From positions 1-36,406 of IMG/VR virus record IMGVR_UViG_3300025266_000021: a stretch of 36,406 nucleotides of DNA. One strand, 5' to 3'. Positions 5,640 through 36,406 of the stretch are shown one piece after another. The notes beneath the pieces were generated by a model that made no database searches, had not been told where the DNA came from, and saw only the letters and a program-made list of their open reading frames with translations. Both the position numbers and the translations under genes were made by a program. This DNA is from a virus. Each line of letters starts with the position of its first letter. The first letter of the stretch is position 1.

Positions 5640-6053
5640 TTGAGAGTCAGCTTGGTGCCTTCAGAGGCGGTAAGGCAAGTATGGAAGGATGTTGAAAGTA
5701 TACTAAAGAAGAGCGTAGCCACAGTTAAAGACAAAGCAGAGATGATTGATGTCTTGAGCGGAGTACTTAATGGCACTTATGTTCTTTGGGTTGTAATGGA
5801 TGAAGATGACAGTCTTATAGCTGCATTTACCACAAGACTTATCGTATACCCTCAACGGAAAGCATTGGCCTTGGATTGGGTAGGCGGAACGCGCATGAAA
5901 GAATGGGAAGATCAGTTGATCGACACTATGCGTAAGTACGGAAATGAGTTAGAATGTAGTCATCTAGAGGGCTACGGCAGAAAAGGTTGGGGTAGATCGT
6001 TAAAGAAATACGGTTTCTACCCTGAGTATATAGCGTACCGAATGGAGTTATAA
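5640..6053 (+). CDS. GNAT-fold protein, T7 gp13-like internal virion protein
   Basis: This 137-aa protein starts at a TTG directly after the previous stop (TAATTG); no better upstream start exists, and the next ATG would remove a quarter of the domain. The C-terminal half (WVGGTRMKEWEDQLIDTMRK, then EGYGRKGWGRSLKKYGF and YIAYRMEL) is the pattern of the acetyltransferase-like phage proteins to which T7 gp13 (138 aa) belongs. The almost identical length and the following run of three large proteins mirror T7 genes 13-14-15-16. T7 gp13 is needed for assembly of the internal core or ejection proteins. Whether this one binds acetyl-CoA cannot be told from the sequence. Confidence 0.7.
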   Translation: MRVSLVPSEAVRQVWKDVESILKKSVATVKDKAEMIDVLSGVLNGTYVLWVVMDEDDSLIAAFTTRLIVYPQRKALALDWVGGTRMKEWEDQLIDTMRKYGNELECSHLEGYGRKGWGRSLKKYGFYPEYIAYRMEL

Positions 6054-6054
6054 T

Positions 6055-24129: not shown

Positions 24130-24142
24130 GTTGTTCTCCGTA

Positions 24143-24157
24143 GTAGTGAGTCACTAC
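24143..24157. repeat. 15-bp palindrome, copy 1 (perfect)
   Basis: GTAGTGAGTCACTAC, at the junction of the HNH-like gene and the SNF2 helicase gene. It contains the TAG stop of the former and lies just before the GGAGAACAAC site of the latter. Confidence 0.95.
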
Positions 24158-24441
24158 TTTTTTTTCTTTGGGCTACTTATAGCACCGCCAGCCGCGCGGT
24201 TTTTCTTTTTGCTTTGGACGGATACACCATCCTTGTTAGTCCCACCTTTACTTAGCGGTTTCTTGTGAGCGATATCCTTGCCTTCCCGCTTGTCGGCTTT
24301 GCCATTCTTGTTGGCATCTTTGCCTGTCTTATCCATTTTGCGCCTAGCTTTCTGGCGTTCCATGCGATTTTTGTGTTCGCCACGTTCTACCTGTTGGTCG
24401 TACTCTTTCTTGTACGGGCGTTTCTTGTTTTTGTATGGCAT
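24154..24441 (-). CDS. Very basic small protein with degenerate HNH motif
   Basis: This 95-aa protein has about 40 Lys and Arg residues. The C-terminal part GKDIAHKKPLSKGGTNKDGV followed by SKKKNR mirrors the HNH core 'dvDHi.PLskGGtn...N....NR': the central His and the GGTN turn are kept, while the usual Asp before the His is Ala and the second Asn is Asp. It could be an HNH nuclease with altered residues or a DNA-binding relative that has lost activity. TGATG couples it to the RecB-like nuclease gene upstream. Its TAG stop lies inside the 15-bp palindrome. Confidence 0.65.
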   Translation of the reverse strand: MPYKNKKRPYKKEYDQQVERGEHKNRMERQKARRKMDKTGKDANKNGKADKREGKDIAHKKPLSKGGTNKDGVSVQSKKKNRAAGGAISSPKKKK

Positions 24442-25115
24442 CAGCTTGCTCCGTTATGAGGACATTCAATTACTTGGCAGTGGCGTCTGCAAAGTCCTGA
24501 CGGGCGGGGGTTCCACACATCTACTTCAAACGCTTTCTCTAGTTTAGCATAGTTCGACAACCATTTGCTCCAAAGAACTTGCTGTAAGTCAATTTCATAT
24601 TCTGCTTTGACAAGGCTCTTAGCTATTACAAAGAGTAGCCCTGCTTTTAGATTAGTAACCTTTGGGTAATGCTTAAATATTGTAAGTGCCATCAACTCAA
24701 GCTGTCCCTTGTCGGCGTACTTGGCAGACTTTCCTGTCTTGTAGTCTATGATCCAACCCGTACCAGTATCCTCGTCTATGATTGCAAGGTCAACAATACC
24801 TCGAAACCAAACATCTTTGGCAAAGAAGCTGCACGGTTCTAGGTCAGCGGTCAACCCTAGCTTCTGCTCGACGATCTTCTTACCTTTCTTACGGTTCAAA
24901 GAATCGAGTGTCGGCTTTATGAAACCAAACTTAGCAGGGATAGGCGTGCCCTCACCTATGTATTTCTCACACGCCTTGTGAAAATCACTACCATAGCGCA
25001 TGGCCTCAGTCGGTCTAAACGGATACTGCTTGAGTACCTTTTCGTGGTAGAATTGTTTAGGGCATTGCTCGAATGCTTTGATCCGACTGAATGACCATGG
25101 CCCTGCTTTACTCAT
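24441..25115 (-). CDS. RecB/Cas4-like PD-(D/E)XK exonuclease with Fe-S-type cysteines
   Basis: This 224-aa protein has the RecB-family nuclease motifs: SFSRIKAFEQCP at 8-19, GSDFHKACE (H46), GIVDL (D109), DYKTGK (D124, K126) and QLELMAL (Q138). C18 near the N-terminus and C209, C213 and C218 at the C-terminus reproduce the four-cysteine layout that holds a 4Fe-4S cluster in AddB- and Cas4-type nucleases. It probably resects DNA ends during phage recombination or replication. No CRISPR array or other Cas gene is present, so a Cas4 role in spacer capture is not supported. Confidence 0.85.
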   Translation of the reverse strand: MSKAGPWSFSRIKAFEQCPKQFYHEKVLKQYPFRPTEAMRYGSDFHKACEKYIGEGTPIPAKFGFIKPTLDSLNRKKGKKIVEQKLGLTADLEPCSFFAKDVWFRGIVDLAIIDEDTGTGWIIDYKTGKSAKYADKGQLELMALTIFKHYPKVTNLKAGLLFVIAKSLVKAEYEIDLQQVLWSKWLSNYAKLEKAFEVDVWNPRPSGLCRRHCQVIECPHNGAS

Positions 25116-25118
25116 TTT

Positions 25119-25319
25119 CTACTGCCCAACAATGCTTATTGACGAGTCGAGAATATCTACTGCAGCGGTTAGTTCTTCAATAGACGCACCGATCATAGCT
25201 AGGAGAACCCGATCAGGCCCGAGGCCGGTCTCGCGACACACCTCCTCCATAACTTTTATACGGCTAACAGTGCTCTCAAACAACGCTGTGTCTATGTATT
25301 TTCTACGCCTATTTATCAT
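25119..25319 (-). CDS. Small hypothetical helical protein (66 aa)
   Basis: It starts with ATGA overlap to the polymerase stop and has GGGGAT upstream. The product is helical: a basic head (MINRRRKYIDTALF), a central KVMEEVCRETGLGPDRVLLA and an acidic C-terminus. The central part could be a short HTH-like pair of helices, but no family is recognised. It sits between DNA polymerase and the RecB-like nuclease, so a replication accessory role is possible. Confidence 0.65.
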   Translation of the reverse strand: MINRRRKYIDTALFESTVSRIKVMEEVCRETGLGPDRVLLAMIGASIEELTAAVDILDSSISIVGQ

Positions 25320-27142
25320 TCACAATCCCCATATGATTTGCCCGTACCGCTCTCGCAATCGACAGGTAGCCCCTCGGCCCAGTCGGGTGTCCACCGCATA
25401 CAACTCTCCACAAACGCCTGTGCTTCAGCGACTTCGGCGTCGGGAACACAGCACACAATCGAATCGTGAACAGTCAATACCACTTGGTATTTCTTACTTA
25501 TACTTAGCATTTGTTCGCCTATAATACAACGTGCTATGGCTTGGCATACATTCTCTATGACTTTGCCGCCGTATATTTTGGTGCGTCCTCTACGAGTTTT
25601 GTAGCTATACTCCAAACCTTTTTCGGCTTGCTCCCCGTATAACTCATCGTAGAAAATTCTTAGGCCGCTCGGCACAATCAGTGCTTGGTTAGCGGCGTCT
25701 ACTTGGATGATACCTTTACGCCCGAACTTAACTGCCCGGTTACTGGCAAGCTTCTGCACCATGTAGTTCGCATCGCGCCATCCTTGACTAATTTTATAAT
25801 TCGCATCCCGGTATATGTCTATGATCCGACGAGCTTCATCAGTTGATACCTCATACCCAAACGTCTTTAACTGCACGCCAAACTTCTCGGCACCCATGCC
25901 ATACCCAGCACCGAGGATCGTAGTCTTCCCAACGAACCGCTGATCTTTTGTAACGTTTTCTTCTTTGCAACCGTAGATACGTGCCGCCATCTTTATGTAT
26001 ACATCTTCCCCTCTGGCAAATGCAGAGGTCAGGTCATCCTGTCCCGTGAACCACGCTAAGACCCTTGCTTCGATCTGTGAGCTATCGGCTTCGACAACTG
26101 TGTGTCCTTCGGGAGCAACGATAGCCTTCTTTAATTTCTTCCCGTTCTTCCCACGGCTTGGAAGGTTTTGTAAGTTGATCTTGTCGGACCCACCCCAACG
26201 ACCTGTGTGTGCGGCGTAGTATCTAACTGGGACCGGAAGCAGGCCACGTTTATATATGCCTATAAACCTCTCTGTGCGTGTCTCCTCTAAGGTACTTTTG
26301 CTACCCAAACGTGCCGCTACTAGAGATTGGACCCTGTCATCCTCGTGTTCTTGCAGTGCTTTAAAGTCCTCGTCTGACTTTGCAAAGGCGTAAGTATCCT
26401 TGCCTGTGGTGGGGCTTACCTTCATAGGAGGTTCTACACCTAGCCCTCTCAGCATGTCAGCAAACTTTATATTAGACATAAGGTCTTTCTTGTCCTCTAT
26501 CCCAGCGTCCACCAACAACTTGTGCTTGCGGTCACGGGTGTCCTCAAGGTGCTGCTCCAACAACCCAAGGTCTAGATCCAAGACAGGGTTGATGAACATG
26601 CGTAATGTAAGGTCGATTATCTTTAACTCTTGACGGGGGAACTTACCGCCCATCATCCTAAACAACTTGTATGTCAACTCTACATCGTTCTTGGCATACT
26701 CACCGTACTTAGCCGCCTCTTCCACAGTGAAATCGGCACGGTGCTTGCCTTTAGCATTGTTTACTTCGTTGCCTTTAACGCCGACACCGTACCGTTCTGC
26801 TGTAGCTTTTAGAGACACGCTTGTTTCTACGCCGTGTAACGCACGGGCCATGCACATAGTATCAAACCATACTTTCGGATTAACCCCGTAACGCCAACTC
26901 AGTATAGCACCATCGAACATCGTATTGTGACATAGGATGGCGCTACTAGAGAAGTCTATGTGTGATAGCAGACGCTTTATTAACGCTGGATCGTTAACGT
27001 ACTTAGTAGACCTATCGTTCTTCTTGATCGCAAGACCGATTACTTCAAAGCGCGGATCACGTACATATTCTTCGGTCGTGACCTTGGACAACGAATATTT
27101 CTGGTCGTAGTACGTCTCGAAATCTAGCGTGTATACGTCCAT
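25316..27142 (-). CDS. DNA polymerase, family A, with 3'-5' exonuclease domain
   Basis: In this 608-aa protein residues 1-170 form the proofreading domain: Exo I DFET (D7, E9), Exo II CHNTMFDGA and Exo III Y-x3-NDVELTY. The polymerase domain has motif A DSSQIEAR (D353, E358, R360), motif B R402-x3-K406-x3-L410-x2-GYG and motif C HDS (D560). The residue equal to E. coli Pol I Phe762 is Leu410. Motif C has Ser561 where Pol I has Glu883. No 5'-3' exonuclease domain is present, as usual in phages. The gene is coupled by TAATG to the DUF6378-like gene upstream. It is the replicative polymerase of this phage. Confidence 0.95.
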   Translation of the reverse strand: MDVYTLDFETYYDQKYSLSKVTTEEYVRDPRFEVIGLAIKKNDRSTKYVNDPALIKRLLSHIDFSSSAILCHNTMFDGAILSWRYGVNPKVWFDTMCMARALHGVETSVSLKATAERYGVGVKGNEVNNAKGKHRADFTVEEAAKYGEYAKNDVELTYKLFRMMGGKFPRQELKIIDLTLRMFINPVLDLDLGLLEQHLEDTRDRKHKLLVDAGIEDKKDLMSNIKFADMLRGLGVEPPMKVSPTTGKDTYAFAKSDEDFKALQEHEDDRVQSLVAARLGSKSTLEETRTERFIGIYKRGLLPVPVRYYAAHTGRWGGSDKINLQNLPSRGKNGKKLKKAIVAPEGHTVVEADSSQIEARVLAWFTGQDDLTSAFARGEDVYIKMAARIYGCKEENVTKDQRFVGKTTILGAGYGMGAEKFGVQLKTFGYEVSTDEARRIIDIYRDANYKISQGWRDANYMVQKLASNRAVKFGRKGIIQVDAANQALIVPSGLRIFYDELYGEQAEKGLEYSYKTRRGRTKIYGGKVIENVCQAIARCIIGEQMLSISKKYQVVLTVHDSIVCCVPDAEVAEAQAFVESCMRWTPDWAEGLPVDCESGTGKSYGDCE

Positions 27143-27600
27143 TACTTGCTCGCTATCTCACCACCACAGGCCATGTAACCTGCGGCATCAATCCAGTTAT
27201 CCATATTATTTGCGTTGGATTTTATACGCGCCACCTTTAGTAGCGTCATCATAACAGAGACATCGGTAGCACTTACTTCAGTGCCTAGATGGACAGACCA
27301 ATACTCACTTATCGTTTGGAAATTACTTTCCATATCACCGTGATCAGAGGCCCGATCTTTCGTGACATAATCCTTGGCGGTGTCCAAGATGTCACCGCGT
27401 GATTTCCAGCTACGCGTTGTCCACGTACCCACTGGGTTTAAATCCGCATCCAATACTTCTTTTGGTGTGCTGATCTTGCTCATTAGCTTATGCACGTAGT
27501 TATAAGACGCTCCAGTAGCCGTTGCGACTTCCCGCGTTGTGGCCTGTGGATGCTTGACTTTATACGCCCAGACCTTGTCAGCTTTTTTCTTCTTAACCAT
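27142..27600 (-). CDS. HTH plus DUF6378-like protein
   Basis: The ATG at 27600 is preferred because GGAGAGTAAC lies just before it; an ATG at 27612 would give four more residues. Residues about 15-45 (QATTREVATATGASYNYVHK) look like an HTH. The C-terminal 90 residues carry the strong pattern DHGDMESNFQTI, then YWSVHLG, DVSVMMTLLKVARI and DNWIDAAGYMACGGEI, which I recognise as the DUF6378 signature found in many phages. Biochemical function is not established. Conserved His, Asp, Asn and Asp residues in helices recall small nucleotide-hydrolase-like helical bundles, but that is speculation. Confidence 0.8.
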   Translation of the reverse strand: MVKKKKADKVWAYKVKHPQATTREVATATGASYNYVHKLMSKISTPKEVLDADLNPVGTWTTRSWKSRGDILDTAKDYVTKDRASDHGDMESNFQTISEYWSVHLGTEVSATDVSVMMTLLKVARIKSNANNMDNWIDAAGYMACGGEIASK

Positions 27601-27611
27601 GTTACTCTCCA

Positions 27612-27800
27612 TTATATGTTAATGCCTTGTTCCCGCAGTTTTGCGGTAAACTCTCGTAGCTCTCTCCTTGCACGATACAAGTCTTGCTGTACGTCAGGAT
27701 GTTGGTTGACGCGATTAACTTCGCGCTCGTACTTATCTGTCTCCTGTTTTAGAAACCGATACTCTGCTTTTTGCGCAGGGTTTAATGCTTCATCACCCAT
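27612..27800 (-). CDS. Small coiled-coil protein (62 aa)
   Basis: It has AAGG 10 nt before the ATG, an 8-base overlap with the gene before it and a TAATG junction with the next frame. It is almost entirely charged helix (ALNPAQKAEYRFLKQETDKY, then RARRELREFTAKLREQG), compatible with a coiled coil. No family is recognised; it is probably an accessory early protein. Confidence 0.65.
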   Translation of the reverse strand: MGDEALNPAQKAEYRFLKQETDKYEREVNRVNQHPDVQQDLYRARRELREFTAKLREQGINI

Positions 27801-28008
27801 TAGGTCTTGCCTTCGGACGCAATGTTTTGCTTATTACATCTGAACTTTCGCATGATATGTGAATGTCTCGTGGGCTGTCATAGATTATTTCTAATGCTTC
27901 TGACCTGAGAACCCTCTCACATTTAGCGTAGCTCTCAAACCAAATCTCGCTGACGACATCGTTACCTTGAAGCGGGTAGTAGATTAGCAGTGCAGTGAAA
28001 AGTTCCAT
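27793..28008 (-). CDS. Small hypothetical protein (71 aa)
   Basis: This protein starts one base after the stop of the 23-aa gene, with GGGGG as a possible ribosome-binding site. The head MELFTALLIYYPLQGNDVVS is hydrophobic, then SEIWFESYAKCERVLRSEAL is helical. The general form, a short beta strand ending in a loop followed by a C-containing helix, is common among small phage proteins of unknown function. It could be partly membrane-associated, but the hydrophobic stretch is too short for a clear membrane helix. Confidence 0.65.
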   Translation of the reverse strand: MELFTALLIYYPLQGNDVVSEIWFESYAKCERVLRSEALEIIYDSPRDIHISCESSDVISKTLRPKARPNG

Positions 28009-28009
28009 C

Positions 28010-28081
28010 CTACCCCCGCTGTTCTTTAAAAACTTTTCTGAACACCTCGTTCAGCATGTCTTCTATATTGCGTTCACCCAT
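28010..28081 (-). CDS. Very small protein (23 aa)
   Basis: A strong ribosome-binding site (AAGGGAGAAG) precedes an ATG at 28081. The frame reads MGERNIEDMLNEVFRKVFKE plus QRG and stops one base before the next ATG. The peptide is an amphipathic charged helix. The good start signal and exact fit between two genes support translation, but a leader or coupling peptide for the downstream gene is equally likely. Confidence 0.5.
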   Translation of the reverse strand: MGERNIEDMLNEVFRKVFKEQRG

Positions 28082-28095
28082 CTTCTTCTCCCTTG

Positions 28096-28437
28096 TTATG
28101 TTTCTTGCGTAGGCAAGCTGTATCTTGACTTCGCTTTGCTTACTACATTTTGACTAATGCCTAATATGCTTGCGATTGTTATTTGGGTCATATCGTTTTT
28201 CAACATTCTGTTGATTATCTTAACTCGCTCTGGCATTGCCTTTCTCTTCTCTAATCTCACCGCACCTTTTTTGGCGTTCTTATATTGAGCGTCTACTATT
28301 TTCTTATTAGCGAACAACACACAGTTCTTATTGACTGCATCCTTTTTGTTTTGCTTGAGCCAAGCCAAACGATACGCACCTTGATAGGTGTCTACGTGCG
28401 GTATCTTTAAAGACCTACTCCGCCTAAGCTGTTCCAT
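28096..28437 (-). CDS. Basic protein with C-terminal helix-turn-helix
   Basis: I choose the ATG at 28437 (MEQLRRSRSLKIPHVDTYQG), with GGAGG 12 nt upstream; a TTG nine bases earlier is possible. It overlaps the VRR-NUC gene by 31 bases. The N-terminal two thirds are rich in Lys, Arg and Asn (KQNKKDAVNKN and RLEKRKAMPERVK). The C-terminus MTQITIASILGISQNVVSKA is a clear HTH of the resolvase/sigma-region-4 kind. It is a candidate phage DNA-binding protein and possible ligand of the repeat families in this block. Confidence 0.7.
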   Translation of the reverse strand: MEQLRRSRSLKIPHVDTYQGAYRLAWLKQNKKDAVNKNCVLFANKKIVDAQYKNAKKGAVRLEKRKAMPERVKIINRMLKNDMTQITIASILGISQNVVSKAKSRYSLPTQET

Positions 28438-28712
28438 GCTAACCAATCCTCCACTTCAGTAATGTTATCTTCGTTTATGACCATAGCTTCGCCACCCGAA
28501 CGGCTGATGTCCTGCAAGTTCTTTTCCTGCAATGCTGTAGGTTTGTTCTTCCCAGCTTTACATTCGATACCAATAAATCGCCCACCATGGCACGCTACTA
28601 TGTCAGGCACCCCACTATGCCCGTAGCCCCCCGTCACAGGGTAGAAGTAATATGCCCCGTGATCGTTGAGTATGGCAACAACTTTCTTTTTGACTTTGGC
28701 TTCGGGTGTCAT
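28407..28712 (-). CDS. VRR-NUC domain nuclease
   Basis: The ATG at 28712 (MTPEAKVKKKVVAILND) is preferred to an upstream start at 28805 that would read through the palindrome and the GC hairpin. In this 101-aa protein the VRR-NUC core is complete: G34-V-P-D37, E50-C-K52 and Q62, the PD-(D/E)XK catalytic set. Stand-alone VRR-NUC proteins act on branched DNA such as Holliday junctions, and in phages probably help resolve or trim replication intermediates. Confidence 0.85.
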   Translation of the reverse strand: MTPEAKVKKKVVAILNDHGAYYFYPVTGGYGHSGVPDIVACHGGRFIGIECKAGKNKPTALQEKNLQDISRSGGEAMVINEDNITEVEDWLAWNSLGGVGL

Positions 28713-28749
28713 CTTGTTTATCCTAGTAACTGGTTTCGGTAGGTAAGTA

Positions 28750-28767
28750 GGGGCGGCGAACCGCCCC
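28750..28767 (-). promoter_or_regulatory. GC-rich tetraloop hairpin before the VRR-NUC gene
   Basis: GGGGCGG and CCGCCCC flank a 4-base loop (TTCG on the minus strand, CGAA on the plus strand), forming a perfect 7-bp stem. It lies in the 74-base gap between the 87-aa gene and the VRR-NUC gene, 4 bases from palindrome copy 2. No T-run follows on the minus strand, so it is more likely an RNA stability or processing element than a terminator. Confidence 0.6.
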
Positions 28768-28771
28768 CATG

Positions 28772-28786
28772 GTAGTGACTCACTAC
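28772..28786. repeat. 15-bp palindrome, copy 2 (perfect)
   Basis: GTAGTGACTCACTAC (central base C), immediately after the TAG stop of the 87-aa gene, in the gap before the VRR-NUC gene. Confidence 0.95.
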
Positions 28787-29050
28787 CTATTTGTGGTAGA
28801 CCCAATAAGTATTGCTATCTATCCGGTGACCTACACCCTCAACTGGTTCGGTCGGGGGTGTCCCGTTGGTCATCATCAGTATAGCAATCCTTTCTTGTAC
28901 CCAATTAGGCGTGCTGGTCATGCTGTCATATAGTCCCAAAGCTGACGCGTCAATAGCTTCCATACCAAAACATAGTATATCTACTCTATTCGTATCAGGA
29001 TGTATCATAACGCGATAGTGTTTGTTCTCGCACACGCTCAAGTCATTCAC
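28787..29050 (-). CDS. Hypothetical protein (87 aa) sharing a C-terminal module with its neighbour
   Basis: It overlaps the 293-aa gene by ATGA. The body is a beta-rich stretch (HYRVMIHPDTNRVDILCFG), then YDSMTSTPNWVQERIAILMM and VEGVGHRIDSNTYWVY. The last 40 residues match the C-terminus of the upstream 293-aa protein in order: YD, P, a hydrophobic helix, VEGVG, then an aromatic end. No known family is recognised. The two genes may have arisen by partial duplication. Confidence 0.65.
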   Translation of the reverse strand: MNDLSVCENKHYRVMIHPDTNRVDILCFGMEAIDASALGLYDSMTSTPNWVQERIAILMMTNGTPPTEPVEGVGHRIDSNTYWVYHK

Positions 29051-29928
29051 CCGCGCAGATAGAATATAGTGTCACTTACTTTGTAGCCGACACCCTCAAC
29101 ATACCCGTCCGCTTGAAGCATACTTAGCACCGACATCTTACCTGCCAGCTCGTCGGGCAGACTATGTTGGTCGTACACAGACATCTCGTCAGGTCCGGGG
29201 TCAAACGCAAAAGCCATGTTCGCATCTACATCAGTAAGCACGCGGAACACCTGCCTACCTGTTGGTGATATAGACGCCTCAACAAACGTGAATGTGTTTT
29301 TGTTAGCGTCACGGGCCATTGCAAGTTCTTTTACCCCGCCAACTATCTTTGCTATCTTATCGCCAAGGTCTTTGTCTAAGAACTCATAGCCCGAATCCAC
29401 CATGTGCTTTAGTTCACGCTGCAACGCATTCGGCGTCGGTGGGGAGTATGTGCCTGTGTCAAACAAGTTGTTGGTCATCTCCCGCCTTACGTCCCCTACA
29501 CTATCCCGTATTTTAGACACCACGATTGCTGCCGCAGTGCCACAGTCCCGTAAGGATAGTTTGACAGTCTGCTTTATAGACAACGGTCGTAAGTATTGCA
29601 GGGCGTTCTTGACCGCCTTGTCTCTCTTCAACGCCAGACACATGCTCTGTTGCTCGCCACCATTATACTTCATGTTTTTTATGTTTGGTGACCACACAGC
29701 GTAACGATCTTCTCCGTCACTTGTATTTTGGAAGTCACCATAACCAATCATACCCACAGCGTAGTTGTCGCCTTTACGGTACACCCACAACCGATTGCTA
29801 TGTTTACATACAGAGACACTGAACCCCTTCATCTCTTGCATTAGCTTGTCAGCGAAATCCAATAGACCGAAAGGCTGTCGCTCATCTTGTGGTTCACGTA
29901 GGTTAATTACTTGTTCTATGCGTTTCAT
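29047..29928 (-). CDS. Hypothetical protein (293 aa)
   Basis: GGAGAACAAT directly before the ATG sets the start, with the 15-bp palindrome 17 bases upstream. The N-terminal half has RLWVYRKGDNYAVGMIGYGD and then DRYAVWSPNI, a beta-sheet-like run. The middle is helical and basic with SVGDVRREMTNN. The C-terminus shares the VEGVG module with the next gene. It resembles conserved hypothetical proteins of aquatic phage early regions; no function is assigned. Confidence 0.7.
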   Translation of the reverse strand: MKRIEQVINLREPQDERQPFGLLDFADKLMQEMKGFSVSVCKHSNRLWVYRKGDNYAVGMIGYGDFQNTSDGEDRYAVWSPNIKNMKYNGGEQQSMCLALKRDKAVKNALQYLRPLSIKQTVKLSLRDCGTAAAIVVSKIRDSVGDVRREMTNNLFDTGTYSPPTPNALQRELKHMVDSGYEFLDKDLGDKIAKIVGGVKELAMARDANKNTFTFVEASISPTGRQVFRVLTDVDANMAFAFDPGPDEMSVYDQHSLPDELAGKMSVLSMLQADGYVEGVGYKVSDTIFYLRG

Positions 29929-29945
29929 ATTGTTCTCCAGTTTGC

Positions 29946-29960
29946 GTAGTGAGTCACTAC
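29946..29960. repeat. 15-bp palindrome, copy 3 (perfect)
   Basis: GTAGTGAGTCACTAC. It supplies the TAG stop of the 340-aa gene and lies 17 bases before the start of the 293-aa gene. On the minus strand it is followed by GCAAAC and TGGAGAACAA, the same cassette as copy 7. Confidence 0.95.
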
Positions 29961-30979
29961 TGTTTCATAAATCCTGCGTTGTTATTCACGAACGAGTTGT
30001 ATCTCGAACGCACGCGGTTCACGTCTTCTTTTGTCTCTACTTCTTTTACTGCGTACGACTTGTTCCAGTTGTTGTATTCGTTTTGACATTGCGCCGCAAA
30101 GTAGACCCAGTACTGTAATCGCATTGGGTGGTTCTCATCCGCTAGGATTTCACGAGACCACTCAGGGTTCCATGCTTCATATGCCGTAAGCGGGTGGAAG
30201 TGTTTACGCAGTTCGTCTGTACGCTCCATGATATAGTCTCGTTCTAGTGGTATTAACGGACTCATAGTCATGCCCCATTCAAAGAACTTTTTAATTGCGT
30301 CGCGGTACTTAGCCTTCAACGCCTTGTCCACGCGTGGGTTTTGCGGTGGCTTTCCCCCAGTTGTTTTATCATGCACCCATTTGTTATCGACGTAATGGAA
30401 CAGCAGTGCCGCGTTGTCATCTGTACGTTTACGCCAAAGCCTCATTTTGTGTGCGGACGCGAAGTCCTTTTCATGGGCATACTCTTGAGCAGTTACTGTC
30501 TTGCCCTTAGCTAGGAATAACTTAGGCTCATTGTCATAGCCTACGGTGATGTAATGGCGACTAGATGCTCGGACAAACTGCAAACCTCTTGGCACATACC
30601 TTTCGAGGAAACTGTAGCGAGACGGTTCACACCCATGGTCTGGCCCTGTCATGTTCCTGATTTGCACGCTGAAGCTACCGTCCATGTATCGACGCCATAC
30701 AATCGGCGCGTAGTACTGCATCTTGCCAAGGGTGGATTTGCTATAGTAGCTGAACATAGGATCGCCACGATGGTGACCATCGCTCAATGCGTAGCAGTTT
30801 CGGCTTATCTTTACGATACGCTCCCATTTACGACTGCGATCACCAATAGGTCTGATGTTACGAGATGTCCCATACCCGTGCAGGTTCTCTGCGCAACTTC
30901 GCTCGTTGATAGGCTTGATGCTTTCGTAGTGAGTCACTACCGACTCAAACGAAGTGTGGTTTGTGAATGTTAGTACCAT
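29957..30979 (-). CDS. Hypothetical protein (340 aa) linked to the MoxR/VWA genes
   Basis: The ATG at 30979 lies one base after the stop of the VWA gene (TAAGATG), with AGGGA upstream, and is preferred to a 31018 start that would overlap it. The product is rich in Tyr, His, Arg and Trp, with no membrane segments. Notable stretches are NCYALSDGHHRGDPMFSYYS, APIVWRRYMDGSFSVQIRN and FEWGMTMSPLIPLERDYIME. HHRGD might look like a metal or nucleotide site, but no family is recognised. Residues about 14-18 (VVTHY) are encoded by a copy of the 15-bp palindrome. Confidence 0.7.
   Translation of the reverse strand: MVLTFTNHTSFESVVTHYESIKPINERSCAENLHGYGTSRNIRPIGDRSRKWERIVKISRNCYALSDGHHRGDPMFSYYSKSTLGKMQYYAPIVWRRYMDGSFSVQIRNMTGPDHGCEPSRYSFLERYVPRGLQFVRASSRHYITVGYDNEPKLFLAKGKTVTAQEYAHEKDFASAHKMRLWRKRTDDNAALLFHYVDNKWVHDKTTGGKPPQNPRVDKALKAKYRDAIKKFFEWGMTMSPLIPLERDYIMERTDELRKHFHPLTAYEAWNPEWSREILADENHPMRLQYWVYFAAQCQNEYNNWNKSYAVKEVETKEDVNRVRSRYNSFVNNNAGFMKQ
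30926..30940. repeat. 15-bp palindrome, copy 4 (perfect, inside a gene)
   Basis: GTAGTGAGTCACTAC within the 5' end of the 340-aa gene, about 40 bases after its start, where it encodes V-V-T-H-Y. It is perfect although it lies in coding sequence. Confidence 0.95.
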
Positions 30980-30980
30980 C

Positions 30981-32198
30981 TTACATGTCCCTTGATTTAA
31001 TATGTACTGTCTTGCCACAGTCTGCTGTAGCCCTGTTGTTATCCATTACGCACCACAGCACAGGCATAGTCCACTGACCCCAGCCACCGAATAGATAGCC
31101 ATCTGTCAGCACGATACATGCTTGCGCGTTGATGTTCTCATCCCGAATGTAATCGGTAACGCATGTCACATCAGTGCCACCACCACCCGCTGGTTTGGTT
31201 GACTGTACGAGTGTATCGAGATCGTGCATTTCATACGTCTCGTCACGACATATCTCCGTGTCCCAATACAACAGGCGTACCCGTTCGGGATGTACCGTGT
31301 CGCATATCTCTTTGACCTCGGAGAGGAACGCAGAGAGTTCACGCTGTCCGATTGATCCAGACGTATCGATAGCCACGATCAACTCACCAACTTGCTCGGT
31401 CACACCGCTTGGCATGTACATACCACTCGACAGGTATCTGCGATTAGGTCTGCGATAAGTAGAGTAGTCGCTACCTGTGCAAGTGTTCTGCACAAACTCA
31501 CGTAATGCTTCACGCCAGTTGACTTGCGGCTGTAGTAGTTCGGCTAGGTCACGGTCACCACCACTGCCCATCTTGCCAGCAACCAATGCACCTTGGCGTA
31601 TTGCCTCGTCGATCTCTCGTGCAAGGTCGCGTTGTTCCTCGGCGGTCAGTTCTTGTGCGCCTTCCCAGTCATGGGTATCGAATGGATTTTGTCCATCAGG
31701 TAGTGAACCACTACCACCTTGCCTGCCACCGTCGCCATCTTGGTCATCACGCAGAGAGTTGTATACCTGCGCACTGTCCATGCCAGTATACTTAGGATCA
31801 TAGCATCCCTTCTCCAACGCGCCTGTCATAGTGGCGAAGCCATCGGAGTTATCATCTACGAGCTTGACGTTGATGACATAGTCACACGCTATGTTTGCAA
31901 GGTGTCCGTCCTCGTCATATAGGTGACGCCATGTGGTTAGGTGTCGGAACAGCTTGTGATACACCTCGTGCAACACCAAGAACCTAAGCTCGGCATCGTT
32001 GAGTTGTGTTACAAACTCACGTCCATACATTTCGTCACGTCCATTGGTACACGCGGTCGGGACACTTGGGTCATCCACCACGTTACGATCACCAATCATC
32101 AGCACCCCTGCGAGTGCTGTGTACTTCGGGTTACCCATGATGGAGACAACGGCTTTGGTTAGCCGCTGTTCCTCTGTTAGCTGATTTAACATTAGCAT
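30981..32198 (-). CDS. VWA-domain metallopeptidase-like protein (DUF2201 type)
   Basis: AGGAG 7 nt before the ATG fixes the start. The 405-aa protein has an N-terminal zinc-peptidase-like motif, H77-E-V-Y-H81. An acidic Gly/Asp/Gln-rich linker follows (about 150-190). The C-terminal VWA domain has a complete MIDAS: D278-x-S280-x-S282, the GGGGTDV threonine and LTDGY aspartate. This order matches DUF2201-type proteins, which pair with MoxR AAA+ ATPases. The MoxR gene lies just upstream with only a 50-aa gene between. In bacteria such pairs act in metal insertion, protein remodelling or stress response; the phage role is unknown. Confidence 0.85.
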   Translation of the reverse strand: MLMLNQLTEEQRLTKAVVSIMGNPKYTALAGVLMIGDRNVVDDPSVPTACTNGRDEMYGREFVTQLNDAELRFLVLHEVYHKLFRHLTTWRHLYDEDGHLANIACDYVINVKLVDDNSDGFATMTGALEKGCYDPKYTGMDSAQVYNSLRDDQDGDGGRQGGSGSLPDGQNPFDTHDWEGAQELTAEEQRDLAREIDEAIRQGALVAGKMGSGGDRDLAELLQPQVNWREALREFVQNTCTGSDYSTYRRPNRRYLSSGMYMPSGVTEQVGELIVAIDTSGSIGQRELSAFLSEVKEICDTVHPERVRLLYWDTEICRDETYEMHDLDTLVQSTKPAGGGGTDVTCVTDYIRDENINAQACIVLTDGYLFGGWGQWTMPVLWCVMDNNRATADCGKTVHIKSRDM

Positions 32199-32200
32199 TG

Positions 32201-32353
32201 TTATTCTCCTTGTTTCTTATTCTTTGGCTTAGTAGCCCTGTTGCTTTTCAACGCACGTCTCGCGGCGCGGTTGACGGGTTTCATTTCAGAAGTGTCTTGC
32301 TTCTTGCGAGGAGGGGTTAGCCGATGCCCGTGCGTATTGTTTATAGTACCCAT
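32201..32353 (-). CDS. Small basic protein (50 aa)
   Basis: GGAG precedes the ATG at 32353 and the frame ends 2 bases before the ATG of the VWA gene. The product begins MGTINNTHGHRLTPPRKKQD and ends in a Lys/Arg-rich tail (RAARRALKSN, KPKNKKQGE). It is likely disordered and possibly nucleic-acid binding. Its place between MoxR and VWA genes, with good ribosome-binding sites on both sides, supports it as a real gene. No family is recognised. Confidence 0.7.
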   Translation of the reverse strand: MGTINNTHGHRLTPPRKKQDTSEMKPVNRAARRALKSNRATKPKNKKQGE

Positions 32354-32363
32354 GATGATCTCC

Positions 32364-33458
32364 TTATTTCTTATCTGCTGTGTACAGATGGTTGTTCTGC
32401 ATAGCCCACGCTGTGAACTTCTTGTTGGTCATCACCATCGCTTGCTTGCTGTACTTGGGTGAGCGTACACCGTTAGCGAACATAGCCTGTGCCTCGGTGT
32501 CGAGACGCGGTAAGTAATCCATCCAAGCGTCGAGCCAGTCTTTCTCCAACGCGGCCAGAGTTCTATACACAACCATACACACGGCGGCGGCGCTGCCGGG
32601 AACCTTGGCATTCTTCGGATCATCCTTGACCGATTGCAAGCTGGGTAGCTGGTCGGATAATGACACAAACGCCATCAAGTCCATCGCACCACGATCACCA
32701 ATCGTACCCATCAGGGCGGCGGTCAGTGTTACATCGTCGAAGTGTTCCCGTGTTTTGAGTACATCAGACGCCGCTTCGAGTGAACGTGGAGTAACAAACG
32801 CAGTGCGTTGCTGCTTGGGGTGAAAGATGTATGGGTTCTCGTCGGGGTCTTTCACATCCTCGAACGATGCCATCAGGTGTGGGTTGTCTTTGACCCAACC
32901 AAGTAGGGTGTGATCGACATCGTTGTTGATACCCCATTCGATCCAATCCATGTGGTTGGTCTTGCGTATCTGCACCACAGTCATACGGTTGCGTGCGTGC
33001 GGCGGTATCATGTCACCCACACCCTCTGAACCTTTGTTGGTCGTGGCAAAGACAATGCTGTCAGGGTGTAGTGAGTAACTACCCACTTTACGCTCCAACA
33101 TCAGACGCAACATCGCGTTCTTCACAGCGGGGTTCGCCTTGCCATACTCGTCGAGCATCAGGATGATCGGCCCATCTATATGCAGACCGAGTTCTTCGTG
33201 TGGGATCATACGCACACAGCCATCCGTTTCGATAGACTGCATCGACGGGATCATAATGTCACCGAGGTCTTTAGTCGTGCCATCAAAGTATATGGGTCGA
33301 TGGGTCGGCAGTTGTTCGGCCAAGGTGTTGATCATGGATGACTTGCCGTTACCCATATCACCCTGTGCTAGTATGGTACGTTTGCTACCCACCGCTTTGA
33401 TAAGATCGACGCATTGATCTAGGTTCAGTGCGTACATTGCTTGTGCTTGATTAGTCAT
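32364..33458 (-). CDS. MoxR-type AAA+ ATPase
   Basis: The start is ATG at 33458 (MTNQAQAM), preceded by GGAGGACAACAAA. In this 364-aa protein Walker A is GDMGNGKS (33-40), Walker B is IILMLDEYGK (D103, E104), the sensor-1 stretch is IVFATTNKG, and arginine-finger candidates follow in PPHARNRM. This is the MoxR/RavA-like branch of AAA+ proteins, which act as chaperones with VWA partners. Adjacent genes are a DUF3150-like protein upstream and the VWA/HExxH protein downstream, so the three probably form one complex. Its 5' half contains a degenerate copy of the 15-bp palindrome. Confidence 0.9.
   Translation of the reverse strand: MTNQAQAMYALNLDQCVDLIKAVGSKRTILAQGDMGNGKSSMINTLAEQLPTHRPIYFDGTTKDLGDIMIPSMQSIETDGCVRMIPHEELGLHIDGPIILMLDEYGKANPAVKNAMLRLMLERKVGSYSLHPDSIVFATTNKGSEGVGDMIPPHARNRMTVVQIRKTNHMDWIEWGINNDVDHTLLGWVKDNPHLMASFEDVKDPDENPYIFHPKQQRTAFVTPRSLEAASDVLKTREHFDDVTLTAALMGTIGDRGAMDLMAFVSLSDQLPSLQSVKDDPKNAKVPGSAAAVCMVVYRTLAALEKDWLDAWMDYLPRLDTEAQAMFANGVRSPKYSKQAMVMTNKKFTAWAMQNNHLYTADKK
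33068..33082. repeat. 15-bp palindrome, copy 5 (one mismatch, inside a gene)
   Basis: GTAGTGAGTAACTAC inside the MoxR gene. One base in the right arm differs from the consensus and the central GANTC is lost. It may be a weak site or a chance relic. Confidence 0.7.
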
Positions 33459-33479
33459 TTTGTTGTCCTCCAAGACAGT

Positions 33480-34394
33480 TTATATATCCAATGATGGTAG
33501 TGATTTGATCGCGGCATCTACTGCCGCTTTGGTTTCGGCGCGGAAGTATTCATCCTCACGCAGTGCATCAGGTGTCACGCCAGACATTGCCTCTTCGAGA
33601 CTGTTCGCCATTGCTGACATCTGCGTTGACTGTGTCACGTTACACACACGGAGAAGTTCTATCATGTCGTTGACGTTGCCAACCAAGCTGTCGCGGAACA
33701 CTTTCTTGTCCTCTTTGCTACCGTAGTCGAGACGCTCTGACATGCTGGTCAGTGACTTGTGCAAACGTGTCCACACATCATTCATCGCGGTGTTGTACTG
33801 CTTGGCGTAGAACTCGCTGTACTTCTCTTGCACCTCGGCTAGTGCATCGTTGCCGATATCCACACGGAAGTCGCCAGAGTCAGGCAGGGGCATGTAGTTG
33901 ATGCCGACAGAGAACTTACGCTCTACCTGTACGTGGTCAGGATAGTCATCACGTGAAAACAAGTCTCCAAGTATGATCTGAACGTCGATCACGGCATCGT
34001 TGTACCTGTCCAAGAACCCCTGCACGAGACGCCAGAACTCGTTGACCATCTCAGACATGGCTTGGCTGTACTTGAAGTACTGCGCTGTCGGTAACAGGCG
34101 AAGACCTGAGTTTGACCACGGCATTGTCATAGCCGCGTGCGTGGCACGAATTGCTGATACGTGAGTTTGTATCGCCTTGAGATCGTCGTTGTTGGCAAGC
34201 AACTTCTTGTTGACGTTCGCCACACCTTTAGAGGCGTAGTTCTGTGAGGTGACATCGGCAGAGGCACGCTTGTCTTTCTTGCGCCCAACCCAGTGAGAGA
34301 TGTTGACCTCGACGAGCATCGCGGATGATGCAAGTGTTGGTGCTTGGGTTTGCGGTAGTGGGTCACTACCTTGGATTGCGTTCATCATATTCAT
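33480..34394 (-). CDS. DUF3150-like protein, likely partner of MoxR/VWA
   Basis: The ATG at 34394 follows AGGAG by 8 bases; a longer frame to 34487 would overlap the zinc-ribbon gene. The 304-aa protein begins MNMMNAIQGSDPL. The early segment LVEVNISHWVGRKKDKRA resembles the start of DUF3150 proteins ('l..l.is.W.grkk'), and the rest is helical with VNEFWRLVQGFLDRYNDAV and DRVFRD-like charged stretches. DUF3150 genes are recurrent neighbours of MoxR ATPases, from memory of the family. It probably serves as an adaptor or substrate of the AAA+ protein. Assignment to DUF3150 is tentative. Confidence 0.65.
   Translation of the reverse strand: MNMMNAIQGSDPLPQTQAPTLASSAMLVEVNISHWVGRKKDKRASADVTSQNYASKGVANVNKKLLANNDDLKAIQTHVSAIRATHAAMTMPWSNSGLRLLPTAQYFKYSQAMSEMVNEFWRLVQGFLDRYNDAVIDVQIILGDLFSRDDYPDHVQVERKFSVGINYMPLPDSGDFRVDIGNDALAEVQEKYSEFYAKQYNTAMNDVWTRLHKSLTSMSERLDYGSKEDKKVFRDSLVGNVNDMIELLRVCNVTQSTQMSAMANSLEEAMSGVTPDALREDEYFRAETKAAVDAAIKSLPSLDI
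34355..34369. repeat. 15-bp palindrome, copy 6 (one mismatch, inside a gene)
   Basis: GTAGTGGGTCACTAC within the 5' end of the DUF3150-like gene, about 26 bases after its start. One base in the left arm differs and the central GANTC is lost. Confidence 0.7.
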
Positions 34395-34404
34395 AGTTCT
34401 GCTC

Positions 34405-34617
34405 CTACATTGAATACTTGTTGAGACCCTTGAGGTCGTTGGGATTGGTGACGAGTGTTGCACCTTGCTTGTGGGCAATCGGCGCAATGCACCAGCTTGA
34501 CCGAACTTGTTGGGCGCGGAAGTCGCCGCAGTCTAGGCAGAAGTTGTAGCCCAGTTGACGACGACGATGGTCGTACTGTTCGCCGCATGAACGACAGGTG
34601 ACAGTCTTTAGTGCCAT
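34405..34617 (-). CDS. Zinc-ribbon protein (70 aa), first gene of the long left-pointing operon
   Basis: GGAGAACAAGACC precedes the ATG at 34617; the frame is open to an ATG at 34632, but that ATG lies upstream of the ribosome-binding site. C-x2-C (CRSCGEQYD) and C-x2-C (CLDCGD), spaced 17 residues apart, form a zinc ribbon. The rest is basic. It could bind DNA or RNA polymerase. It is the first gene after a near-consensus promoter, so it is likely made early. Confidence 0.75.
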   Translation of the reverse strand: MALKTVTCRSCGEQYDHRRRQLGYNFCLDCGDFRAQQVRSSWCIAPIAHKQGATLVTNPNDLKGLNKYSM

Positions 34618-34639
34618 GGTCTTGTTCTCCATTGTTTGC

Positions 34640-34654
34640 GTAGTGACTCACTAC
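34640..34654. repeat. 15-bp palindrome, copy 7 (perfect)
   Basis: GTAGTGACTCACTAC in the leader between the 34714-34742 promoter and the zinc-ribbon gene, 22 bases before its ATG. On the minus strand it is followed by GCAAACAATGGAGAACAA. Confidence 0.95.
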
Positions 34655-34713
34655 TGGTTTGCTTAGTCGCGCTTGGAGCGCGGTACGTTGCTCGTTTCGT
34701 GACAACATATATT

Positions 34714-34742
34714 ATAATACCATATAGGGTATCAAATGTCAA
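34714..34742 (-). promoter_or_regulatory. Near-consensus sigma70 promoter for the long left-pointing operon
   Basis: On the minus strand TTGACA (34742-34737, perfect), a 17-base spacer and TATTAT (34719-34714) form the best promoter in the window. The start of transcription would be near 34706, about 90 bases before the zinc-ribbon ATG. The spacer holds a near-palindrome, ATACC-CTATAT-GGTAT, which could be an operator. Phased TGAC elements lie directly upstream of the -35 box. Confidence 0.8.
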
Positions 34743-34748
34743 GTTTTC

Positions 34749-34788
34749 TGACATATAGTATAAAGTCCTGACCTATGGTGACGTATCG
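34749..34788 (-). repeat. Phased TGACNTATNG elements upstream of the main promoter
   Basis: TGACATATAG (34749-34758), TGACCTATGG (34769-34778) and TGACGTATCG (34779-34788) lie at 20- and 10-bp steps, just upstream of the -35 box at 34742. The first 35 bases share 27 positions, without gaps, with the array at 22561-22600. Confidence 0.65.
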
Positions 34789-34802
34789 TATAAGTTATGT
34801 AG

Positions 34803-34890
34803 GTAAGCTACTGAAATGTAAGGGAAGTTCCTAATGTTCCGTAATGTTCCACGTAAGTAGTTGAAATGTAAGTAAAGTTCCAATGTTCCT
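34803..34890. repeat. 50-bp direct repeat, two units
   Basis: Units starting at 34803 and 34853, exactly 50 bp apart, share GTAAG, then TGAAATGTAAG, then AAGTTCC and ATGTTCC. The second unit is diverged and shorter. They carry the plus-orientation TAATGTTCC/CAATGTTCC iterons. Confidence 0.75.
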
Positions 34891-35089
34891 TTGATCTGGC
34901 ATAAGGTGGGGGGTAAATGAGGTTATGTGTACGTTGGTGTTATTAGCATGTAGAGGGGGTCGCGTGGGGGGTGTTATTTTTATTAATGGAACATTAGGAA
35001 CATTAGGAACATTATAATAAAAACAATACTTTGAAGACCCCCCTTATGGAACTTCTTGCGGGACATTAGGAACTTTATATGGAACATTA
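34832..35089. repeat. GGAACATTA/TAATGTTCC iteron cluster
   Basis: TAATGTTCC is at 34832-34840 and 34842-34850, with CAATGTTCC at 34881-34889. In the opposite orientation, three GGAACATTA units are head to tail at 34988-35014 and a fourth is at 35081-35089, with variants at 35061-35068 (GGACATTA) and 35069-35077 (GGAACTTTA). Six perfect 9-mers in about 260 bases, in two blocks of opposite orientation, are far more than chance allows. The arrangement fits an initiator or regulator binding region. Confidence 0.8.
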
Positions 35090-35096
35090 TAAAAAG

Positions 35097-35111
35097 GTAG
35101 TGACTCACTAC
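35097..35111. repeat. 15-bp palindrome, copy 8 (perfect)
   Basis: GTAGTGACTCACTAC. On the minus strand a TATAAT sequence (35091-35086) follows 5 bases later, so a protein bound here would cover the -17 to -31 region of any promoter using that box. No good -35 box is present. Confidence 0.95.
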
Positions 35112-35160
35112 TACTTGCCGTGTGATGCGCAGAGCTGCTTACATAACTGGTTTCATTAGC

Positions 35161-35175
35161 GTAGTGAGTCACTAC
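35161..35175. repeat. 15-bp palindrome, copy 9 (perfect)
   Basis: GTAGTGAGTCACTAC, right end of the first 52-bp unit. Confidence 0.95.
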
Positions 35176-35260
35176 CCTTTGTACTGTTCCGTACCACGAC
35201 ATCTCTACACGCGTGGCTGGCATGACGCGCAGAGCTGCTCCGAGAACTGGCTTCAATAGG

Positions 35261-35275
35261 GTAGTGAGTCACTAC
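35261..35275. repeat. 15-bp palindrome, copy 10 (perfect)
   Basis: GTAGTGAGTCACTAC, right end of the second 52-bp unit, 14 bases from the U-tract of the terminator. Confidence 0.95.
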
Positions 35276-35289
35276 CAAAAGCAAGACAC

Positions 35290-35322
35290 AAAAAAAGCCC
35301 CGAAACCCGAAGGCTCCGAGGC
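35290..35322 (-). terminator. Intrinsic terminator with cUUCGg tetraloop
   Basis: On the minus strand GCCTCGGAGCC, loop TTCG, GGTTTCGGGGC form an 11-bp stem (three G-T pairs) closed by the very stable C-UUCG-G tetraloop, followed by seven T residues. It lies 6 bases after the stop of the 44-aa membrane gene and ends the short right-end transcript before the repeat-rich control region. Confidence 0.9.
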
Positions 35323-35328
35323 GGTGTA

Positions 35329-35463
35329 TTAAATAAAAAGTGCAATGAGTATCCAACAGCCTATTGTAGCGGCTGTCGCAAGGTAAAGCAGTACTGCTCT
35401 GGTAATACCTACTGCTTCGATATCTTGAAGTATGATTTGTTTAATGAGGCTAATTGTTTTCAT
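35329..35463 (-). CDS. Small membrane protein (44 aa)
   Basis: The ATG at 35463 has GGA about 10 bases upstream, a moderate signal. The product starts MKTISLIKQIILQDIEAVGI and continues into one clear membrane helix (AVLLYLATAATIGCWILIAL) ending FI. The gene lies between a GCAA-loop hairpin and a strong terminator, so it is the last gene of a two-gene transcript with the 183-aa gene. Small early membrane proteins in phages often affect superinfection or host membrane state, but nothing in the sequence decides the role. Confidence 0.65.
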   Translation of the reverse strand: MKTISLIKQIILQDIEAVGITRAVLLYLATAATIGCWILIALFI

Positions 35464-35491
35464 GTGTCCATTCCAATTAAGTGTTGCGGTT

Positions 35492-35511
35492 GAGGCGGCT
35501 TGCGCCGCCTC
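35492..35511 (-). promoter_or_regulatory. GC-rich hairpin with GCAA tetraloop
   Basis: GAGGCGGC, a 4-base loop (GCAA on the minus strand, a GNRA tetraloop) and GCCGCCTC form a perfect 8-bp stem, 6 bases after the stop of the 183-aa gene. No T-run follows, so it is probably an RNA stability or partial attenuation element between the two genes. Confidence 0.65.
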
Positions 35512-35517
35512 GTTACC

Positions 35518-36069
35518 TTATCCGATCGACTTGATCATCATGTTGAGTGCTTCAACCATGGCACCAACATCCATCTTGGATTCGAACGTATCAGACTTTT
35601 GCATACGTTTGATTGCATCGTTGAGCAATTCGCGTACCTTGGTTTCGGCCGATACCGTTCTGGCATCTGGCCCAGTCTTGCCTGACGCGACTTCCGAGGC
35701 GATGTCTTCACGGCGTTTGAGTTGCGTCTTGATGTCGCCGATAACCGCGTTAGCCTGACGCATCCAATACGCTCTTGACTGGCCGTTAACAGTCTTGTCG
35801 CCGCATACCTTGGCAGACATAGCCATCATATCTTGCGCACCTTTTGGCAAGCCTGAGTTGATAGTATCTTTCAAGAACGCCCAGCCTTCATCTGTGGCCT
35901 CGCTCCCCTCAGACTTAGGCGATATGCAATGAGTGCTGGCCCAACCTGCGCTACGCAATGTATCAGTACGTTTGATACGTGCCAGATCAGTCTTAACTGT
36001 AGAAGTTGACCAATCGCGAATTGTTGTTTCGATCTCAGTGTTGATAGTCGCAATGTTTACTTGTGTCAT
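35518..36069 (-). CDS. Hypothetical early protein (183 aa)
   Basis: The ATG at 36069 (MTQVNIATINTEIETTIRDW) follows AAGGA by 8 bases. The frame is open to 36105, but that start lacks a site. The product is mostly helical and charged, with GWAFLKDTINSGLPKGAQDM and YWMRQANAVIGDIKTQLKRR. The C-terminal half is likely coiled (KVRELLNDAIKRMQKSD). No family is recognised. It is the first gene of the right-end left-pointing transcript and so possibly expressed very early. Confidence 0.75.
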   Translation of the reverse strand: MTQVNIATINTEIETTIRDWSTSTVKTDLARIKRTDTLRSAGWASTHCISPKSEGSEATDEGWAFLKDTINSGLPKGAQDMMAMSAKVCGDKTVNGQSRAYWMRQANAVIGDIKTQLKRREDIASEVASGKTGPDARTVSAETKVRELLNDAIKRMQKSDTFESKMDVGAMVEALNMMIKSIG

Positions 36070-36126
36070 GTTGTGTCCTTTCAAAGACGTTATCAATTGG
36101 TGCATGATTGCCCGTTTGATGTAACC

Positions 36127-36155
36127 AGTATACGTGTTTTGGTGTGTTGTGTCTC
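36127..36155 (-). promoter_or_regulatory. Possible promoter of the 183-aa gene
   Basis: On the minus strand GAGACA (36155-36150, four of six), a 17-base spacer and TATACT (36132-36127, five of six). The start would be near 36120, giving a leader of about 50 bases. The weak -35 box suggests dependence on an activator; the palindrome and a TGACGTATGG element lie 30-60 bases upstream. Confidence 0.45.
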
Positions 36156-36183
36156 GTTATCAGGTGTCGCTAGCTATCAAATG

Positions 36184-36198
36184 GTAGTGAGTCACTAC
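36184..36198. repeat. 15-bp palindrome, copy 11 (perfect)
   Basis: GTAGTGAGTCACTAC upstream of the possible promoter of the 183-aa gene, 5 bases from the TGACGTATGG element. Confidence 0.95.
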
Positions 36199-36203
36199 TT
36201 TTC

Positions 36204-36213
36204 TGACGTATGG
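36204..36213 (-). repeat. Single TGACNTATNG element
   Basis: TGACGTATGG, third site of the 10-bp element family, upstream of the first left-pointing gene. Confidence 0.5.
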
Positions 36214-36406
36214 CGACCCCCACGTACCCCCAACCCCCCTGCATAGCGACACGTCTCGCACTTCTATATAATAAAGATCTGCGCAAACTTTTTCGTTTTC
36301 CCCAAATATGGAACATCGCCTTACTTCGAGGAAGAGTAGTGGTTCATGGGGTTTGGTAATAACAACCTAATGTAATCAATAGCTTAGCTACCCCCCACCC
36401 TTTTTC

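Follow-up and report, generated by a model that had tools for sequence, protein, structure and literature searches.

An inverted repeat of 15 bases recurs through the early genes of the phage analyzed here, which raises the question of what recognizes it, and whether it is read as DNA or as RNA. The window, i.e., the whole 36,406-base stretch of an IMG/VR virus record, was searched for GTAGTGASTCACTAC with up to three mismatches. The search returned 12 copies, all within 24143–36198: nine exact, two with one mismatch and one with two mismatches. Shuffled sequences gave an expectation of 0.93 copies, and the highest count in 100 shuffles was 4. A first-pass annotation had listed eleven copies, nine exact and two with one mismatch; every coordinate proved correct, and a twelfth copy with two mismatches, GTAGTGAACCACTAC at 31700–31714, had been overlooked. 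The absence of the motif from the first 24 kb, which it also reported, holds for positions 1–24142 even when three mismatches are allowed. G001, a 47,193-base contig of the same phage that extends about 15 kb beyond the window's right end, contains the same 12 copies and none elsewhere, so the motif is confined to one region and not scattered over the genome.

Location of the copies relative to genes and promoters

The copies are found at gene junctions, in leaders and inside coding sequences, as the first-pass annotation had described. Four exact copies occupy leaders: 24143–24157, 13 nt before the helicase start at 24129 (in relatives the same place, at −28); 28772–28786, ahead of the endonuclease gene and followed by a GC-rich hairpin and GAAACCAGTT; 29946–29960, ahead of a 293-aa gene (start 29928); and 34640–34654, ahead of the zinc-ribbon gene (start 34617) and about 50–65 nt downstream of the presumed early transcript start. 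Four more lie within genes, namely an exact copy at +39 of a 340-aa gene (30926–30940), the two-mismatch copy in the VWA gene, with both mismatches in the free spacer, a one-mismatch copy in the MoxR-like ATPase gene (33068–33082) and another at about +25 of the DUF3150 gene (34355–34369), its mismatch again in the free spacer. Three exact copies (35097–35111, 35161–35175 and 35261–35275) form a cluster in a non-coding stretch, the second and third being followed by GAAACCAGTTATGTAAGCAGCTCTGCG and GAAGCCAGTTCTCGGAGCAGCTCTGCG, respectively. This cluster lies between an intrinsic terminator (35297–35322, minus strand) and a sigma70-type early promoter, TTGACA-17-TATTAT (34714–34742, minus strand), which is a consensus match at 11 of 12 bases and not proof of a promoter. 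The terminator is downstream of the candidate regulator gene, o183 (35518–36069, minus strand), which encodes 183 aa and is the first early gene. The remaining exact copy, 36184–36198, is upstream of o183, in the intergenic region that divides early genes from divergent late genes in G001.

Placement was then counted for 159 exact sites in 16 genomes, with gene calls and starts taken from our own simple script: 66 were in leaders, 53 in non-coding stretches and 40 in coding sequence. Most leader sites (54 of 66) begin 28–39 nt before the start codon, and no rule for site orientation was seen. Clear sigma70-type promoters precede some leader sites by 45–60 nt, including the window promoter at 34742–34714. 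The gap between the MoxR and VWA genes measures 30 nt and leaves no room for a promoter, as do some other site-bearing gaps; an operator overlapping a promoter at every gene was ruled out on this ground.

Copies that run across replication genes, a cluster adjoining an AT-rich, repeat-bearing non-coding region and a class-independent GATRCCAGTT element after the cluster sites would all suit a DNA-organizing, partition or replication-control protein of the ParB or KorB kind, acting without any transcription roadblock. We consider this explanation unlikely: placement follows gene starts, the late half of the genome has no sites, and ParA (PF13614) was found in none of 12 records, which may be fragments, against detection of the control in 14 of 14. 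A replication role may nevertheless apply to the non-coding cluster at 35.1–35.3 kb. The packaging mark suggested in the first-pass annotation is unlikely, as the late region lacks any copy.

Repeat classes and their association with the first early gene

An exact scan of IMG/VR for the motif yielded 109 stretches. In most of them the early genes and their order are shared (helicase, exonuclease, DNA polymerase, endonuclease, VWA protein, MoxR-like ATPase, DUF3150 protein, zinc ribbon), with protein identity down to about 60%; the viruses of this family are mostly marine and their hosts are bacteria. Close relatives retain the motif at the same junctions, which was the check originally proposed for it. 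The kept places include 28 nt before the helicase start, about 30 nt before the 293-aa gene, +39 in the 340-aa gene and +391 in the ATPase gene (start aligned by BLAST). The repeat itself is real, but the fixed center of the 15-bp palindrome first described is not, since positions 7–9 differ among relatives and leave GTAGTG-N3-CACTAC as the conserved form. No description of the repeat was found in open-access papers.

Each lineage of the IMG/VR relatives has its own inverted repeat, in about 8–14 copies restricted to the early region. The classes comprise GTAGTG-N3-CACTAC (window), GTAGTT-N3, GTTAGTG-N3/4, GTTAGTC-N4, GTTAGC-N6, TTTAGGG-N4 and TTCGGGCA-N2, and spacers of both 3 and 4 nt occur within one genome. 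In a sample of 80 helicase relatives chosen independently of the motif, the helicase-leader position holds other repeats in other lineages, e.g., GTTAGTG-N3-CACTAAC, GTAGCT-N3-AGCTAC, TTTAGGG-N4-CCCTAAA and TTCGGGCA-N2-TGCCCGAA; many distant members of this sample have no obvious inverted repeat there. Among 80 contigs fetched by ATPase homology, all but one (L283) repeat a single inverted repeat of their own, with a shuffle maximum of 1–2 per locus and just two or three copies on the shortest contigs. Whole records hold about 8–12 copies per genome, in the early region only. GTTAGTC-N4-GACTAAC occurs 8 times in G046, and GTTAGC-N6-GCTAAC occurs 13 times in G040 (L375, L376), where a fourteenth copy has a 7-nt spacer; many G040 copies are apparently within coding sequence, and one is distant from the rest.

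Among cultured phages, the Planktothrix phage Pag-Yong1 shares DUF3150 and VWA genes with the family and contains GGTTCA-N3-TGAACC in 21 exact copies, spread beyond the early region. No comparable repeat was seen in the parts of sequence read of two distant cultured relatives, DSL-LC04 and HTVC023P. Three 65,014-base records, OL906435 (L154/L155), OQ594354 and PP438419, are 100% identical in one compared protein. Their stated hosts are Planktothrix, Planktothricoides and Synechococcus, yet the genome is 69% G+C, and a bacterium associated with these may be the actual host.

Near-identical phages of differing repeat class were compared gene by gene, with three o183 sub-families merged by position. 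Between G024 (TTCGGGC) and G025 (TTTAGGG), the core has a median identity of 92% and o183 an identity of 27%; between G007 (GTAGTG) and G011 (GTAGTT), the values are 97% and 27%, and o183 is the lowest-identity gene in both comparisons. Across classes, o183 identity was 0.18–0.29 in 35 of 35 pairs whose core identity is 0.8 or more, and within classes it was 0.41–1.00 (n = 65), these counts being non-independent trials because contig pairs share ancestry. On trees of 43 contigs, repeat class changes 5 times along o183 (minimum 4) and 8 times along the neighboring gene o305. The o305 tree places TTCGGGC in three separate positions and GTAGTT in three among GTAGTG phages, or in two without L283, which has mixed sites and was labeled by its o183. 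In these comparisons, repeat class follows one phage gene, o183, the small ORFs beside it being taken together with it. For this reason the phage-regulator operator, one of the three initial suggestions, is now well supported.

Arms and regulator do not correspond in a strict one-to-one fashion. GTAGTG arms are also present in the deep G003/G004 lineage, yet its o183 is only about 19% identical to that of the window, and TTTAGGG arms accompany two o183 clades. The gene at the o183 position in G046 is weakly related, in its C-terminal part, and the first early gene of Pag-Yong1 has no detectable relation to o183. The relevant stretch is missing from G031 and several further contigs, which are therefore uninformative on whether repeat and regulator are absent together. 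That a binder is not recognized from sequence, o183 being put forward on genetic grounds, would leave room for host transcription factor operators copied by the phages. We find this highly improbable, given that near-identical phages differ in class and that class tracks a phage gene.

The sites themselves differ along with the regulator. From G007 to G011, 9 of 11 aligned early sites have moved towards the arm sequence of G011, eight of them on both sides of the spacer, and the two unchanged sites sit in stretches identical between the phages; from G024 to G025, all six aligned sites have changed. In the same-class pairs G024/G029 and G025/G027, arms are unchanged at 7 of 7 sites each, one alignment gap aside, and changes are confined to the spacer. 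Arms within coding sequence change even when this alters amino acids, as in the ATPase (GSYSL, GSVSL, GSYKL). L283 combines a GTAGTG-type backbone, 85–94% identical to L258 in aligned stretches, with a GTAGTT-type o183, and its sites are half-converted, e.g., GTAGTGAAAAACTAC where L258 has GTAGTGAAACACTAC. Positions 4677–9597 of this contig appear caught between two repeat classes following a regulator swap, and would represent a rare snapshot of a genome rewriting many operators.

DNA-level versus RNA-level recognition

An RNA hairpin was among the roles first suggested for the repeat. In a developed form of this idea, hairpins just before ribosome-binding sites would be bound or cut by a phage protein, controlling translation or mRNA processing. 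Several observations speak for it: leader sites stand 28–39 nt ahead of start codons and downstream of predicted promoters, and spacers of 3 and 4 nt in one genome suit a loop. This last point is easier to explain with RNA, and we count it against the DNA reading.

Mismatches and spacers point the other way. Among 33 single-mismatch copies, some of them shared by descent, 2 would form G-U, 2 A-C and 29 other pairs, so G-U is not preferred. Spacer frequencies in four classes correlate with those of their reverse complements (0.73, 0.80, 0.90 and 0.41), and the correlations with reverses or complements range from −0.39 to 0.20. The TTCGGGC class has ANCT or, in reverse complement, AGNT as the spacer of all 52 sites. 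A loop recognized as RNA would not give such symmetry, and the symmetric A..T within spacers is unable to pair in a hairpin. The symmetry of the spacers under reverse complement and the lack of a preference for G-U are signs of DNA-level recognition and suggest that the repeats are read as double-stranded DNA. In addition, three sites of the window are over 350 nt upstream of the early promoter, beyond a terminator, and many sites of the class with a 6-nt spacer are apparently intragenic. No known RNA family was detected within 24000–36406. The hairpin explanation is accordingly disfavored, and we rate it as improbable.

The boxB/N antitermination system of lambdoid phages is nevertheless a useful comparison. 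boxB is a 15-nt inverted repeat, lineage-specific and matched to an early phage protein, and it acts as an RNA hairpin in one or two copies. The repeats described here resemble it in their inverted form, 15 nt long in the window, and in being lineage-specific and paired with an early phage protein, and differ in their signs of DNA recognition and in their number, about ten. RNA-type recognition should show a loop whose identity matters, tolerance of G-U and use of one strand only, and these marks were not seen.

Candidate regulator and proposed dispersed operators

The AlphaFold2 model of o183 is all-helical (mean pLDDT 89.8, pTM 0.62), and a TTCGGGC-type o183 that is 18% identical has the same helix order in its model (mean pLDDT 82.7, pTM 0.55). 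A Foldseek search of the PDB gave no match below E 0.7, a PDB profile search no meaningful match, and Pfam neither a consistent family nor a ParB match; none of the three recognized a DNA-binding domain. As no fold, profile or Pfam match was recognized, the argument that o183 binds DNA is a genetic one. A 116-aa HTH-like protein (28096–28446) was rejected as the binder, being present in few relatives, and the CcrM site GANTC at the motif center was rejected as essential, being lost in many relatives.

We consider it reasonably probable that the repeats are dispersed, 'stoperator'-like operators for a phage regulator, most likely o183. A dimer of o183 would bind both arms, and bound copies near ribosome-binding sites, in early genes and by the presumed origin would halt host RNA polymerase and shut off the early operon, while the site beside o183's own gene would permit autoregulation. 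Dispersed-operator block fits best because the sites occur independently of promoters, at places where a block would keep RNA polymerase out of the following gene, and because they are matched to an early gene that has its own site. Against it stand the tight leader-to-start distance, which is more than a DNA roadblock strictly requires, and the 3- and 4-nt spacers in one genome, which would be unusual for a DNA-bound dimer. An activator or antiterminator working on passing RNA polymerase would also suit sites strung along a transcribed early operon; ten sites, many of them intragenic, fit a block better, and the known DNA-bound antiterminators, to our knowledge, act at one promoter-proximal site. 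We therefore view this alternative as quite unlikely.

Under the dispersed-operator reading, arms and regulator would form lineage-specific, exchangeable pairs, and acquisition of a new regulator allele would be followed by conversion of the phage's sites. The recurrent class switching suggests selection for escape from a rival phage's regulator, i.e., a form of immunity; physical binding, dimerization, elongation block and immunity are all steps that we infer. Neither integrase (PF00589; its control matched) nor ParA was found in the 12 possibly fragmentary records, so a lysogenic role is not supported, and early-gene shut-off and exclusion of co-infecting relatives are more likely uses. A prophage origin was likewise rejected: a helicase scan of GTDB gave as close matches only short MAG contigs (65%, Rhodobacteraceae MAG) and no integrated copy. 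More tentatively, and with considerable doubt, o183 could represent a new DNA-binding regulator family with an immunity-like function in lytic phages, in which some ten elongation blocks would silence a co-infecting phage of the same repeat and would be evaded by regulator exchange and concerted site rewriting.

The closest parallel is the stoperator system of Cluster A mycobacteriophages (L5, Bxb1, Trixie) and their immunity repressor (PMC9283540, PMC6550527). L5 stoperators are asymmetric 13-bp sites, 20–30 per genome, oriented with transcription, and the repressor of these temperate phages binds as a monomer and combines an N-terminal HTH with a Stoperator domain (PMC9283540). The way immunity evolves in this group (PMC6550527) is similar to the class switching by gene exchange described here. 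In both systems a genome carries one short site many times, mostly off promoters and often in short intergenic gaps; each lineage has a single consensus, which changes together with the repressor (here the candidate o183), and specificity has changed repeatedly. In contrast, the sites described here are inverted repeats of 15–18 bp, 8–14 per genome and in the early region only; they are neither asymmetric nor oriented, and their spacer is reverse-complement symmetric. No HTH or Stoperator domain was recognized in o183 by PDB, Pfam and fold searches, and, unlike in temperate Cluster A phages, integrase and ParA were not found in the 12 records, fragments as some may be.

KorB operators of plasmid RK2 offer a second likeness, as they are about a dozen short odd-length palindromes at promoters and between or within genes, served by one global regulator. 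KorB itself belongs to the ParB family and has a ParA partner. The sites of the window share the number, the short odd length and the location between and within genes, whereas o183 has no ParB-family match in Pfam and the 12 records no ParA.

These phages, a nearly uncultured group, thus offer several natural, exchangeable candidate regulator–operator pairs together with a named gene to test. If the immunity reading is true, operator-based superinfection control extends beyond temperate phages.

Several neighboring features were also recorded. The VWA/DUF2201, MoxR-like ATPase and DUF3150 genes (window 30981–34397) stay together as a trio, conserved in Pag-Yong1 and almost all phages of this family. 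A 2197-aa polyvalent protein (window 10719–17312) has LPD39, a DarB-like C-terminus and a peptidase-like motif, HEMxHA, that is conserved; its residues 620–699 are of low complexity. Suggestive hairpin spacing led us to consider N4-like virion RNA polymerase promoters, an idea set aside, as this LPD39/DarB-like, peptidase-like protein is without the polymerase motif R-x3-K-x7-YG; a PF00940 search gave no match, and neither did its control. At window 34780–35080, AT-rich non-coding DNA adjoining the site cluster contains repeated GGAACATTA/TAATGTTCC-like units that resemble replication-origin iterons. A second element, approximately GATRCCAGTTCTNNGAGTAGCNNNGCG, follows non-coding palindromes by 5–8 nt, 2–3 times per genome, and is similar in all repeat classes (window 35161–35300 and 28700–28740; G024 27270, 27415 and 27525; G026 52774, 52895 and 53010). 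The endonuclease leader has a partial copy of this element, which is possibly part of an origin.
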